In this document: positions 4,412-11,429 of the stretch, one piece after another
Position numbering within the stretch: position 1 is the stretch's first letter
How the letters are laid out: every line of letters begins with the position of its first letter
Virus record (IMG/VR): IMGVR_UViG_3300010883_000449
Coordinates: 1-24,381 of that record
Length of the DNA stretch: 24,381 nt
Strand: one strand, 5' to 3'
Origin: a virus
Notes under the pieces: generated by a model
Told to the model about the DNA's origin: nothing
The model's input: only the letters and a program-made list of their open reading frames with translations
Databases searched by the model: none
Translations under genes and position numbers: made by a program

Positions 4412-5602
4412 ATGGCAAAGGACCCCTTGGATGGTCAAACAGTACCTACAAAAAAGATGGCAGAGGAATTGTCACGTATTCTAGGCTGTTCTGGGGCGCA
4501 CCGTGTCGATGATGACACTTGGGGTCCTTGCCAATCTCCACGTGATTTGATGAAACTCATTGAGTTGGGTAACCCTGCTTTCCGTAACTGGAAAAAAAAT
4601 CAGACACGGAAGAAAGCCGTCGTAGACCTTATCAGCATGAAGGCTGCTAGGACTAAGGGTGTTTTCAAGAATCGTAGGGAAGCAGAAATGACTGCTGCTC
4701 GTCTAGGCTGTACCGGTGCTCATCAAGTTCGTCAGGGCGTCTGGGCACCTTGTGCTACACCAGAGGAGCACAATGCTGCACACGGTAATACTGGCTCTGG
4801 GCGCTCTCGGGTGTTGCGAGCACAGCGGCCCGCACGCCGTGTTGTTGTGAATGAGCGTGTTTGGGAAAATCTTCGGGAGCGTGGTCCTCGTGGGATTGAG
4901 ACTTTGCCGGGGGGTGGTTTGGTTTCAGCTAAGGAGGGTGTTGGCGATTCGTTTAAGCCTACTGCGGGTATGGTTGAAGAAGCAAAGAAGGGTCTTGAGT
5001 GGCGGCGTGAGACTGGTCGTGGTGGTACTATGATTGGTGTGGCCCGTGCCCGAGATATCTCTAACGACAAGAACTTGCCGTATGGTACTGTTAAGCGTGT
5101 CAAGGCATACTTTGATCGTCACCAGAGTGATTCTAAGGCTGAGGGGTATAGGCCCGGAGAAAAGGGATTCCCCTCTAATGGGCGAATAGCTTGGGCGCTT
5201 TGGGGTGGCGATGCCGGATACACTTGGGCTAAAAACATTGTTCAGCGAGTAGACGGTACTAAGAAGTCTTTTGACAGTATTGAGGAGAAGCGGTTTTATA
5301 CCAGGACTCGTCGGACAGAGTACGCTAAGCGTGGTATAGCACTGCCTGATGGATCGTATCCTATTCGGGATGTTGGTGATTTGCGGAATGCTATTCAGGC
5401 GTATGGCCTTGGTAAAGATCGGGCGGCTGTAAAACAACATATCATTAAGCGTGCCCGTACTCTGGGACGCACTGATTTGGTTCCTGCTGACTGGAAGACC
5501 CGAGAAAAAGCGGCTAGGCGTTATGGTCCGAATGATCAGAAGCCTCCTGCTAAGCCTTCAGAGCGAGTTCGTGGTGCAAGGCTAAGAGGGGTAGCGAAAT
5601 GA
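4412..5602 (+). CDS. Phage structural-cluster protein with duplicated Cys/His motif, 396 aa
   Basis: A basic, multi-part protein. The N-terminal part carries two copies of a short motif: LGC-S/T-GAH, four to six residues, W-x-PC (residues 24-40 and 98-114), each with Cys and His spaced C-x3-H-x9-C. Residues about 185-285 hold a Trp/Gly-rich domain (WRRETGRGG, GVARARDI, AYFDRHQ, GRIAWALWGGDAG) that I have seen in phage head-region proteins. The C-terminal part (about 305-365) resembles a frequent phage module, with ALPDGSYPI, RDVGDLRNAI, IIKRARTLG and a closing DLVPADW. The family is not functionally defined to my knowledge, and a role in head assembly is inferred from its place just ahead of the capsid gene. 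The ATG at 4412 follows a short ATGGAG purine stretch. Its stop overlaps the ferredoxin start by 4 nt. Confidence 0.75.
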   Translation: MAKDPLDGQTVPTKKMAEELSRILGCSGAHRVDDDTWGPCQSPRDLMKLIELGNPAFRNWKKNQTRKKAVVDLISMKAARTKGVFKNRREAEMTAARLGCTGAHQVRQGVWAPCATPEEHNAAHGNTGSGRSRVLRAQRPARRVVVNERVWENLRERGPRGIETLPGGGLVSAKEGVGDSFKPTAGMVEEAKKGLEWRRETGRGGTMIGVARARDISNDKNLPYGTVKRVKAYFDRHQSDSKAEGYRPGEKGFPSNGRIAWALWGGDAGYTWAKNIVQRVDGTKKSFDSIEEKRFYTRTRRTEYAKRGIALPDGSYPIRDVGDLRNAIQAYGLGKDRAAVKQHIIKRARTLGRTDLVPADWKTREKAARRYGPNDQKPPAKPSERVRGARLRGVAK

Positions 5603-5871
5603 AAGTATGGATAGATCAAGACCTCTGTACTGGTGATGGCTTGTGTGCTGAAATTGAGCCAGCTATCTTCGGGATGGCTGAAGATGGGCTTGCCTACGTT
5701 AAAGAAGTAGCGTGGCCCACGGTCTATTCTAAAGATGGTATAAATGCTTCGGAAGACCCTATCCTCCAGATGGCCGAAGGCGTTGCTGCTGTCCCTGATG
5801 ACAAACTAGAGTCTGTTATTGAGTCAGCCGAGGAGTGCCCTGGTGAGTGTATCTTTATTGAGGTTGGATAG
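5599..5871 (+). CDS. Small ferredoxin ([3Fe-4S] or Asp-ligated [4Fe-4S])
   Basis: A 90-aa soluble electron carrier. The cluster motif is CTGDGLC (C10, C16), with Asp13 where a classical four-Cys ferredoxin has its second cysteine. The last ligand is in ECPGEC (C80 followed by Pro, plus C84). The pattern C-x2-D-x2-C...CP matches single-cluster ferredoxins of the actinobacterial and Pyrococcus type. Known members pass electrons to cytochromes P450 or other oxidoreductases; no partner enzyme is in this window. Residues about 36-75 form a longer acidic insert than usual. The ATG overlaps the stop of the 396-aa gene (ATGA), so translation is coupled, and a strong terminator follows. C84 is an extra cysteine whose role is unclear. 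Confidence 0.9.
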   Translation: MKVWIDQDLCTGDGLCAEIEPAIFGMAEDGLAYVKEVAWPTVYSKDGINASEDPILQMAEGVAAVPDDKLESVIESAEECPGECIFIEVG

Positions 5872-8452: not shown

Positions 8453-10408
8453 GTGGACCCTTTTTATATCCCCGACAACTTCGCTAACGATTATGCTGAC
8501 CAGATTCCGCCTTGGGGGTTCAACGGTTTAGGTTATGTGACGTACAAACGAACGTATGCACGGCCTGTTTTTGAGGAAGGTACAGACTTCATTGAGCGTA
8601 CCGAGGAGTGGCATGAGACCATTCAGCGAGTAGTGAATGGTGCTCAGAGTATTGGTGCTCAGTTGAGCGAGGAAGAGGCAAAGCGTCTGTATGATTACTT
8701 GTTCAACCTTAAGGGTTCGGTTGCGGGGCGCATGTTGTGGCAGTTGGGTACTGAGAATAATCAGCGACTAGGTGGGGATAGTTTGGTTAACTGCTGGTTT
8801 GTTGATGTTCAGAAGCCCACGGATTTCTCTTGGGCGGTTGAGCGTTTGATGCTTGGTGGCGGTGTTGGTTTCTCTTGTGATCAGCCTGAGCGCTTAGGTG
8901 TGGTTCGTGCTGGTTGGGTTAGTCATCAGGATGCAAATGATTCTGACTTCATTGTCCCTGACACTCGTGAGGGTTGGGGCAATGTTATACGTAAGGTGTT
9001 TGAGTGCTATCTTGGCGACGACGATGATCCGCAGTACATGACGTATGCCACTCATCTTATCCGCCTTGCGGGAGTTCCGATTAAGACGTTTGGTGGTACT
9101 GCTTCTGGGCCTGCTATTCTTATCTCAGGTATTGAAAAGATTTGTGCTGTTCTGGATGGTGCCGTTGGTCGGTCCCTGACTTCAGTTGAGGTTCTGGACT
9201 GCATGAACATTATTGGTTCAATCGTGGTGGCTGGTAACGTTCGCCGGAGTGCCGAGATAGCTGTTGGCAGTCTGGACGACGAAGCATTCTTGATGGCAAA
9301 GCGGTGGGACTTGGGCAATATCCCGATTGAGCGGGCCATGTCTAACAACACTGTGTTTGTGTCACCTAAGCAGATGCAGGACATGCCTGAGATGATTTGG
9401 GACGGTTACAAGGGGAACGGTGAGCCGTACGGTTTCTTTAATCTAGAGGCTTCTCGTCAGTTTGGGCGCATGGGCGAAGAGCGCCCTGACCCGTCTATTG
9501 TCGGGGTTAACCCCTGTGCGGAGATTCCATTGGCTAATCGGGAGTCGTGCAACCTGGCAGAAATCTTCTTGCCCATGATTGATTCGCCAGAAGAACTGCA
9601 AGATGTGGCGCAACTTCTTTACAAGGTACAGAAGTCCGTTGCTGCGCTCGGATATCTTGATCCCACGTCCGACAAGATTACTTCGCAGAACATGCGTCTT
9701 GGTCTGGGCATTACGGGCGTTACGCAGGCGCTGGGCAAGATTGATTGGTTGGATGAAGCGTATGTTTCGTTGCGTGCCTTGGATGCAGAGTGGTCGGCAA
9801 AGCGTGGCTGGCCGGAGTCGATTAGGCTTACGACGATTAAGCCATCGGGCACTCTTAGCCTTCTTCCAGGTGTGACTCCCGGCGTTCACCCCGGTTTTAG
9901 CCAGTACTTTGTGAAGCGGATGCGTATGGCGTCCGGCGATATTCTTGTCAACTACTGTCGATCCAAGGGTTTCTACGTTGAGCCTGTGCGTAACTTTGAT
10001 GGCTCAGAAGACCCTCGCACAGTGGTGGTTGAGTTCCCTTGTGCGTTCCCTGATGGAACTATTGAGGCTAAGGACATGACGGCGATTGAGCAGATGGACC
10101 TTGTTCGGTACTTGCAGAAGGTGTGGGCAGACAATGCTATCTCTGTGACCGTGTATTACAAGAGCGATGAATTGGATGGGATTCGTGAGTACCTTGCTAA
10201 GAACTGGCATGAGATGAAGTCTGTTTCGTTCCTGCTGCACAGTGAGCATGGTTTTGATCAGGCTCCGATGGGCGAGTTGACCAAGGGTGAGTATGAGCAC
10301 ATGGTTAACAACACCTCACCGCTTGGTGAAAAACTAACGGGGTCTACTGTCATGTCAGATGATGACTTAGAGGACGCTTGTGTTTCCGGGGCGTGTCCCG
10401 TTAGATGA
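8453..10408 (+). CDS. nrdJ: Adenosylcobalamin-dependent (class II) ribonucleotide reductase
   Basis: A 651-aa monomeric enzyme of the Lactobacillus leichmannii RTPR type (that enzyme is about 739 aa). It reduces ribonucleoside triphosphates to deoxy forms using coenzyme B12, and so feeds phage DNA synthesis. Visible residues: C114 in LVNCWF and C366 in ESCNLAE form the expected redox pair; C355 (thiyl radical) and E357 lie in NPCAEI; PSGTLSLLPGVTPG (464-477) is the substrate phosphate loop; C643 and C648 in DACVSGACPVR are the swinging C-terminal thiols. All catalytic residues are present. The GTG start is fixed by an in-frame TAA 27 nt upstream; the ribosome-binding site is weak (AAAGAGAG). 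Its place between capsid and connector genes, away from any replication gene, is unusual. Regulation through the palindromic promoter upstream is likely. Confidence 0.96.
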   Translation: MDPFYIPDNFANDYADQIPPWGFNGLGYVTYKRTYARPVFEEGTDFIERTEEWHETIQRVVNGAQSIGAQLSEEEAKRLYDYLFNLKGSVAGRMLWQLGTENNQRLGGDSLVNCWFVDVQKPTDFSWAVERLMLGGGVGFSCDQPERLGVVRAGWVSHQDANDSDFIVPDTREGWGNVIRKVFECYLGDDDDPQYMTYATHLIRLAGVPIKTFGGTASGPAILISGIEKICAVLDGAVGRSLTSVEVLDCMNIIGSIVVAGNVRRSAEIAVGSLDDEAFLMAKRWDLGNIPIERAMSNNTVFVSPKQMQDMPEMIWDGYKGNGEPYGFFNLEASRQFGRMGEERPDPSIVGVNPCAEIPLANRESCNLAEIFLPMIDSPEELQDVAQLLYKVQKSVAALGYLDPTSDKITSQNMRLGLGITGVTQALGKIDWLDEAYVSLRALDAEWSAKRGWPESIRLTTIKPSGTLSLLPGVTPGVHPGFSQYFVKRMRMASGDILVNYCRSKGFYVEPVRNFDGSEDPRTVVVEFPCAFPDGTIEAKDMTAIEQMDLVRYLQKVWADNAISVTVYYKSDELDGIREYLAKNWHEMKSVSFLLHSEHGFDQAPMGELTKGEYEHMVNNTSPLGEKLTGSTVMSDDDLEDACVSGACPVR

Positions 10409-10456
10409 CTTAGTGGCGTAGTAAGCACCACTGGCACATTCTTGCGGAGAGGCTAT

Positions 10457-10462
10457 TATAAT
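10457..10462 (+). promoter_or_regulatory. -10 box TATAAT ahead of putative small RNA
   Basis: A consensus TATAAT about 50 nt after the reductase stop. The best -35 match (CTGGCA, 10431-10436) has a long 20-nt spacer. Predicted start near 10469. Confidence 0.45.
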
Positions 10463-10468
10463 TAGTTG

Positions 10469-10630
10469 CGATCTGGCGAAAGTTTGGGTTGTAAATTATA
10501 GTTGTACCGGCAAGCAGGCTAACCCCGAAGGAGGAGATTGTGAATATCGGTTAAAGTGCCGGTGATCGAGAAGCAATCAAATTACCTAGGTGGGGTCAGG
10601 TCGCTTGAACCTGACCCCGCTTGGCGTTTA
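10469..10630 (+). ncRNA. Candidate small structured RNA (about 150-160 nt)
   Basis: The 232-nt gap after the reductase gene has no gene of normal size, but holds a consensus -10, a long hairpin and a terminator in order. The hairpin pairs ACCGGCA (10506-10512) with TGCCGGT (10557-10563). An inner stem pairs TAA+CCGA (10520-10528, with CC bulged) with TCGGTTA (10547-10553). The 18-nt apical loop (10529-10546) displays GGAGG within a Shine-Dalgarno-like AAGGAGG that begins at the stem end, followed by GTG and a five-codon frame (GTG AAT ATC GGT TAA). I match it to no known riboswitch or tRNA. It could be an independent RNA, or a 3' end structure of the reductase message. Confidence 0.45.
10592..10630 (+). 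terminator. Rho-independent terminator after ribonucleotide reductase/small RNA
   Basis: A perfect 10-bp stem GGGGTCAGGT (10592-10601) / ACCTGACCCC (10609-10618) with the loop CGCTTGA. The T tract is weak (GCTTGGCGTTT), so termination may be partial. The -35 of the next promoter lies in its loop and right arm. Confidence 0.75.
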
Positions 10631-10634
10631 AGAT
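10605..10634 (+). promoter_or_regulatory. Promoter, probably leaderless, for 117-aa gene
   Basis: TTGAAC (10605-10610), an 18-nt spacer, TAAGAT (10629-10634), then 6 nt to the ATG. No Shine-Dalgarno precedes the ATG, which suits transcription starting at the start codon. The -35 is embedded in the preceding terminator. Confidence 0.6.
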
Positions 10635-11001: not shown

Positions 11002-11030
11002 TTGACAACTCTTTGTGGGTGTATTATCAT
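11002..11030 (+). promoter_or_regulatory. Near-consensus promoter, leaderless, fixing the start of the HA/HTH gene
   Basis: TTGACA (11002-11007), a 17-nt spacer, TATCAT (11025-11030), then 6 nt to the ATG at 11037. The predicted transcript begins at the ATG. This argues against the longer in-frame TTG start at 11013, which lies inside the promoter. Confidence 0.75.
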
Positions 11031-11036
11031 ACTTCT

Positions 11037-11429
11037 ATGAATCACCATGAGCGATGGAAAAAACATTACAATGCATTGATTCAGTACTACAACAGGTACG
11101 GCGATGCAATGCCACCCAGTGGTCATACAGAGTTCCTACCTGACGGAGAAGAAATAAACTTAGGTAATTGGGTTAGTTACATGCGTACTCGCTACAAGCA
11201 GCAGGCACTGCCAGACGACAGAATTGCTATGCTTTCGGCGCTGCCTAGTTGGGAGTGGGGACCAGTTCGGCCTGGCCCAAAGTCAAAGACCGAAGTGATA
11301 ATTCGCAACACGGATATTTTGGCGAGACACAAGTCTGGGATGCCATTATCGTCTATCGCAAAGCAGTATGGTCTCTCTAGACAGAGAGTACACCAAATAG
11401 TTAAGGAGAGTTATGTCCAAGGAATATAA
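11037..11429 (+). CDS. Helicase-associated-domain protein with sigma-region-4-like HTH
   Basis: A 130-aa putative DNA-binding protein. Residues 7-75 match the helicase-associated (HA) domain pattern: W7, Y11-x2-L, Y17, G22, a P, then LGNWVSYMR, a basic stretch, L58, RI, L and a closing W72-x-W. Residues about 91-123 are a helix-turn-helix, ILARHKSGMPLSSIAKQYGL then SRQRVHQIV, very like the -35-reading helices of sigma factor region 4. HA domains bind nucleic acid in phage and actinobacterial proteins; an HA plus sigma4-like HTH pair suggests a transcription regulator. The ATG at 11037 is preferred over TTG at 11013 because the -10 box sits between them. Its end overlaps the next gene by 17 nt. 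Confidence 0.8.
   Translation: MNHHERWKKHYNALIQYYNRYGDAMPPSGHTEFLPDGEEINLGNWVSYMRTRYKQQALPDDRIAMLSALPSWEWGPVRPGPKSKTEVIIRNTDILARHKSGMPLSSIAKQYGLSRQRVHQIVKESYVQGI

Follow-up and report, generated by a model that had tools for sequence, protein, structure and literature searches.

A structured RNA family with an invariant Shine-Dalgarno-like stretch, located upstream of a small protein gene in aquatic phages

A region of about 155 nucleotides in a phage contig, at about positions 10464 to 10619 of the stretch of DNA analyzed here (24,381 nucleotides; the window), very probably represents a real, structured, and discrete RNA family, as judged from its homologues. The RNA contains a strong complement of the 16S rRNA 3' end and is found directly upstream of the gene for a 117-amino-acid protein (P117). 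Tentatively, our best single reading is that of a trans-acting phage RNA that would engage 30S subunits, either as a decoy or as a minigene.

Results

Genomic context of the element

The window covers 24.4 kb of the genome of a contractile-tailed phage and, besides the structural genes listed in Table 1, contains tail tube and endolysin genes. A ferredoxin-like protein (Fer4_15; 5599-5871) is phage encoded upstream of the capsid gene. Among named phages, the closest relatives of the sheath and capsid proteins belong to Gordonia and Arthrobacter phages, and several genes of the window have a -10 box, some of them also a -35 box, just 5 to 9 nt ahead of the start codon. The host is therefore likely to be actinobacterial. 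At 11002-11037, 7590, and 17541, TTGACA-17-TANNNT-like boxes, or a -10 alone, abut the start codons (leaderless). Unlike these leaderless-type genes, the structural genes have Shine-Dalgarno (SD) sites, which may separate expression classes.

From the stop codon of the ribonucleotide reductase (RNR) gene at 10408 up to 10641, no gene-sized open reading frame (ORF) was found, in line with a sequence-only reading of this region, and the homologous regions have stops in most frames. The sequence elements listed in that reading were all recovered at or near their given positions, including a consensus -10 box; a promoter-like -10 (score of at least 7) precedes the RNA by a fixed distance in 25 of 28 homologues, against 7.7 expected. 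The same reading recognized no known RNA family, and indeed a search of the window with the Rfam 15 covariance models returned no match, no family reaching its gathering threshold or coming near it. A search of six loci, five of them with the element, at E ≤ 5 gave a chance match to SNORD66 as its sole result, in the one locus with a truncated element, and ARAGORN found no tRNA or tmRNA genes in the element region. By these searches, the element is a conserved small RNA gene outside every catalogued RNA family tested.

Table 1. Coordinates of the features discussed in the text
Feature	Position	Strand	Sequence or remark	Partner-swap p
Major capsid protein gene	6175
Class II RNR gene	8453-10408
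-10 box of the promoter assigned to the RNA	10454-10462	+	TATTATAAT; TATAAT 10457-10462, TATTAT 10454-10459
P0, 5' variable hairpin	10464-10479	+	AGTTGC..CGAAA; 82% of cells paired	0.23
P1	10483-10529	+	TTTGGGTT 10483-10490 with AACCCCGAA 10521-10529	0.005
P1b hairpin	10502-10513	+	invariant loop UACCGG, 10505-10510	0.003
SD-like stretch	10528-10538	+	AAGGAGG(AGAT), AAGGAGG in all copies; extended complement of 16S rRNA 3' end
P2	10536-10578	+	GATTGT 10536-10541 with GCAATC 10573-10578	0.03
Mini-ORF	10540-10554	+	GTG-AAT-ATC-GGT-TAA, GTG at 10540
P3	10547-10569	+	TCGGTT 10547-10552 with GATCGA 10564-10569; loop bears GCCGGT	2e-4
Second CCGG loop	10559-10563	+	CCGGU; candidate loop-loop partner of ACCGG, 10506-10510
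Terminal (terminator-like) hairpin	10592-10618	+	GGGGTCAGGT 10592-10601 with ACCTGACCCC 10609-10618	2e-4
Predicted P117 gene promoter	10605-10634	+	TTGAAC 10605-10610 (hairpin loop/3' arm), 18 nt, TAAGAT 10629-10634
P117 gene	10641-10994	+	117 aa; predicted leaderless
Tail sheath gene	14605
Putative tape measure protein gene	18360		long reading frame; called on size and position only

Conservation of the RNA-P117 unit

Related viral contigs were fetched using the neighboring proteins as bait. The RNA was found directly upstream of the P117 gene in 47 of 47 other viral contigs encoding a relative of this protein, and each RNA-carrying contig, up to 128 kb in size, harbors a single copy. These phages form a widespread aquatic clade, contractile tailed and probably infecting actinobacteria. 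An alignment of 28 distinct RNA sequences was obtained, in which the window differs from its closest distinct relatives (L050 and L056) at one position of the 75-column core; at the DNA level, the RNR and P117 genes of the window and L050 are 88% identical. Training on 21 sequences gave a covariance model that recovered the divergent copies that had been held out (L034, E = 5e-5; L055, 1e-5; L035, 6e-7), while the most divergent group (L042, L029, and L131) reached E values of only about 0.5 to 0.8. A functional tie between the RNA and the RNR was considered and rejected, since the RNA stays with the P117 gene while its distance to the RNR gene ranges from a few tens to about 1,200 nt.

DNA and protein searches of named phages gave no match, nor did a search of sampled bacterial genomes with P117. 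The searched records of the nearest isolated relatives, the Gordonia and Arthrobacter phages, contained neither RNA nor protein, the null result being weak for the RNA, of which a diverged copy could escape. A pattern search independent of the protein (GTACCGG..AAGGAGGAGA..GCCGG) retrieved same-clade members only.

Variable insertions flank the RNA-P117 unit on either side, the unit itself being intact: about 550 to 590 nt lie between RNR and RNA in L009 to L021, and about 1.1 kb separates P117 from the next gene in L042 and L029. That gene (11037-11429 in the window) encodes a small protein with a helicase-associated (HA) domain and a sigma-70 region 4-like helix-turn-helix (HA-HTH), a possible transcription regulator that is kept beside P117. 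In L043 to L046, the RNR gene is broken up by about 900 nt, which may represent an intron or intein; the gene spans about 2.86 kb in L044 to L046 versus 1.95 kb otherwise.

Covariation argues for a specific fold

Single-sequence folding gave a z score of -3.1 with the terminal hairpin and -0.5 without it, and longer 5' pieces folded singly were uninformative (-0.5 to 0.03). Because significance came only through the 3' hairpin, the structure of the 5' part rests on comparative evidence. Across the 28 homologues, 88.2% of the cells are paired in the fold we propose, compared to 30 to 48% when the partners are slid by 1 to 3 columns, and 18 pairs show two-sided changes, compared to 2 to 10. Compensatory changes, by which the sequence-only reading proposed that its candidate be judged, are thus present. 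We also swapped the 3' strands among 14 representatives of less than 85% identity (Table 1; these p values ignore phylogeny). By these comparisons, the terminal hairpin and P3, a hairpin absent from the earlier reading, are strongly supported, the former with 100% of the cells paired and two-sided changes, G-U intermediates included, in 6 of its 10 pairs, the latter with 93.9% of the cells paired and two-sided changes in 4 of 6 pairs. More weakly supported are P1 (69 to 75% of the cells paired, the alignment being imperfect there), P1b, which takes a 12-bp form in L055, and P2 (96% paired, with one-sided changes). Partner swapping gave no support for P0. Overall, the covariation supports well an element family with a specific fold.

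The stem arms also bear on a reading in which DNA promoter or operator signals, and no RNA, account for the conservation. Two promoters do lie within 200 bp, and the hairpin overlaps the -35 box of the downstream one. However, the arms take many G-U combinations (14 U-G at columns 168 to 182), which break dyad symmetry and keep RNA pairing, and P3 and P2 are far from both promoters. We therefore regard DNA signals alone as very improbable.

A long nested hairpin with an outer stem had been described in this region. Its complementary strands, ACCGGC (10506-10511) and GCCGGT (10558-10563), are present in the window, but they would join the loops of P1b and P3, so that ACCGG/CCGGU would be a loop-loop (pseudoknot) contact rather than a nested outer stem. 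The CCGG being invariant (28/28), covariation neither supports nor refutes this contact. The inner stem of the nested hairpin, TAACC/GGTTA (87.5% of the cells paired, one pair being broken in 9 of 28 copies), shares its 5' bases with P3 and fits less well than the competing P3 pairing, TCGGTT/AGCCGA; it could represent an alternative state. From the alignment, RNAalifold recovered no helix apart from the CCGG helix and the terminal hairpin, probably because of the pseudoknot-like arrangement of the other helices and the gappy alignment.

The terminal hairpin and the predicted promoter of P117

The 10-bp hairpin of the window is perfect, as had been noted. In the window, where its tail is GCTTGGCGTTT, it was not called by a consensus terminator scan, but relatives have U-richer tails (GCTTTTTAC and GTTTTCTTATT). 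In most copies, a -35-like TTG lies within the hairpin loop or 3' arm, and TANNNT is found 5 to 7 nt ahead of the P117 start codon in all 28 copies (3.3 expected). The P117 gene has no SD (anti-SD energy, -2.7) and is predicted to be leaderless. Since it would have its own promoter, the RNA would not be its ordinary 5' untranslated region.

These features weigh on the possibility that the RNA is a cis-acting leader of P117, a ribosome-mediated attenuator or a riboswitch, in which translation of the mini-ORF or binding of a ligand would alter folding and set polymerase passage of the terminal hairpin. The order of promoter, short ORF with a strong SD, hairpin, and gene is the classic layout of an attenuator, and the RNA always precedes P117 directly. 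Furthermore, AACCCC has more than one possible partner, a pairing with GGGG being possible, which bears on mutually exclusive terminator and antiterminator forms. However, the predicted P117 promoter overlaps the hairpin, the gene starts 5 to 7 nt after the -10 in all 28 copies, a read-through message, lacking an SD, would be devoid of a normal start, and the strands of the terminal hairpin are separate from the covarying upstream helices, with which it shares none. The earlier suggestion of a leader-peptide or ligand-sensing device is, for the downstream gene, weakened by these predictions, and we consider it unlikely.

P117 as a possible partner of the RNA

P117 is acidic (pI 4.2 to 5.4), and its AlphaFold model is all helical (pLDDT 94). 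No relative of the family was found in Pfam, PHROG, or PDB, and Foldseek returned no PDB fold match for the model, ToxN-like folds included. One uncharacterized protein of an uncultured phage resembles it in predicted fold (E = 2e-3; TM, 0.85).

RNA and P117 might form a pair, the RNA being bound or neutralized by the protein or neutralizing it, as in type III toxin-antitoxin systems or another ribonucleoprotein. toxIN loci consist of a promoter, a pseudoknotted RNA, a terminator-like hairpin, and a small protein gene, an arrangement that the window locus recalls, where the terminator-like hairpin that separates the RNA from the protein gene is paired in all 28 copies. Strict one-to-one co-occurrence in fixed order over 47 contigs, as well as a distant homologous pair in the phages described below (L072-type), would fit such a function. 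Against it, P117 is acidic and all helical with no ToxN-like or other significant structural match, each contig has one RNA unit where toxIN has tandem repeats, the P117 gene has its own predicted leaderless promoter, and the neighboring HA-HTH, TM103, and DUF1599 genes are retained as consistently as the RNA-P117 pairing. Taken together, we find an RNA-protein pair decidedly unlikely.

An invariant Shine-Dalgarno-like stretch followed by a mini-ORF

The window carries AAGGAGGAG at 10528-10536, and AAGGAGG is kept even in copies with up to 34 differences in the 77 core positions. The predicted anti-SD duplex of the window (-14.8 kcal/mol) is the second strongest of the 24 window sites compared, the first belonging to one structural gene, and the 28 distinct copies range from -11.8 to -15.5 kcal/mol. 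The SD-like stretch with a short frame that had been pointed out is therefore invariant in its AAGGAGG part and conserved in its frame in most copies. In contrast, GGAGGAG had been placed in an exposed apical loop, while in the consensus fold it belongs to the linker that connects P1 with P2. When the sequences were folded thermodynamically with the loop-loop contact left out, GGAGG had a mean unpaired probability of 0.20 to 0.93 among homologues and 0.39 in the window, whose minimum-energy fold partly pairs the SD to CCCC. As this accessibility is mixed, we infer SD exposure from the consensus fold.

The five-codon GTG frame of the window was confirmed, and GTG, three codons, and a stop lie 5 to 6 nt downstream of the site in 20 of 28 copies (the stop is TGA instead of TAA in L049). 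Other frames are used in L034 and L055 (ATG-GTA-TCG-GCG-TAG, 7 nt downstream of the site) and in L040 (TTG-TTT-TAT-CGG-TGA), L038 and L039 harbor only a TTG-TAG start-stop, and L035, L041, and L042 lack the full mini-frame. In 13 of 14 representatives, a start is followed by a stop within six codons, with 1.8 expected by shuffling, an excess that we take as suggestive and give no p value because the sequences are related. Helix constraints could also have produced the conserved mini-frame as a side effect.

The same stretch could serve a protein sponge or a base-pairing small RNA, in which GGAGGAG or the UACCGG loops would capture mRNAs or an RNA-binding protein of the host. Such molecules typically show features seen in this RNA, namely a pair of invariant CCGG loops and a GGA that is repeated. 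However, the invariant stretch reaches AAGGAGG, beyond what a GGA motif needs, and Csr/Rsm-type RNAs are recognized by several GGA motifs in hairpin loops together with a host CsrA homologue, where this RNA has a single GGAGGAG in the consensus-fold linker. To our knowledge, CsrA/Hfq-type partners are also atypical of actinobacteria. A sponge or base-pairing role thus appears quite improbable to us.

A candidate second RNA with the same complementarity

In L047, L048, and L072, the RNA was not detectable by the covariance model search, and a distant P117 homologue (E of about 1e-8 to 1e-7) follows the RNR gene. This homologue is preceded by a folding region of different sequence that contains AGGAGGTGAT / GAGGAGGTGAT, fully complementary to the 16S 3' end; anti-SD pairing of GAGGAGGTGAT is predicted at -18.2 kcal/mol. 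A strong GCCACCGG hairpin follows the SD-like site, and after it comes a -10 (TAAAAT), with the start codon only a few nucleotides farther on. An analogous contact could be made by CGGCC, ahead of the site, with GGCCG, behind it. In these three near-identical sequences, the SD-like stretch would be what persists when all else changes, which is a lead and not proof. The RNRs of L072, L047, and L048 share 93 to 95% protein identity with those of L049, L052, and L053, which have the standard RNA/P117 cassette, suggesting cassette exchange.

Discussion

In the reading that we tentatively prefer, a discrete structured RNA of about 155 to 160 nt would be made from its own promoter and end at the terminal hairpin. 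P1/P1b and P2/P3, tied by the CCGG-CCGG loop-loop contact, would flank a linker bearing a near-maximal invariant SD and, in most members, a start, three codons, and a stop. Docking there via their anti-SD, 30S subunits would be held idle or put through a futile minigene, and the outcome would be a shift in which messages are translated during infection, acting in trans on host ribosomes. Transcription as a discrete RNA, ribosome binding, and an effect on translation are all inferred from sequence. Because late genes of the phage also use SD sites, a general SD decoy would come at some cost to the phage itself. A more specific proposal, that of a ribosome trap whose loop-loop-locked scaffold would tilt actinobacterial translation toward leaderless messages, such as that of the linked leaderless gene, we hold to be rather doubtful.

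Among known systems, the lambda bar minigenes are phage transcripts that engage ribosomes unproductively through a start codon and a very short frame of a few codons (PMC8012679). Our RNA resembles them in having an SD, a start, very few codons, and a stop in nearly all representatives, most of them with the exact five-codon form. However, bar is AUG-AUA-UAA, while here there are four sense codons, a variable start codon and frame, and an elaborate conserved fold around the site. We know of no comparable conserved multihelix scaffold in lambda bar. For a bar-type minigene, translation is expected to bring about peptidyl-tRNA drop-off and inhibition. Attenuator leaders likewise place a short SD-led ORF and then a hairpin ahead of a gene but differ in that P117 is predicted to be leaderless, with its own promoter inside the hairpin. 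Known phage small RNAs, e.g., c4 of P1/P7 and AsxR, act in trans and depend on structure for function (PMC12197685); they pair with mRNAs or other small RNAs, whereas the RNA described here itself bears an SD, that is, complementarity to 16S rRNA. By this comparison, it is somewhat like a lambda bar minigene and a member of no family tested. We found no phage anti-SD decoy RNA described in the literature.

Overall, these data point to a family of structured RNAs that is not in Rfam and has a constant protein partner, across a widespread clade of aquatic phages. If ribosome binding is true, it would represent an RNA-only route by which a phage manipulates translation initiation via the anti-Shine-Dalgarno sequence, and whether the division of actinobacterial translation into SD-led and leaderless modes is exploited by phages would become directly testable.
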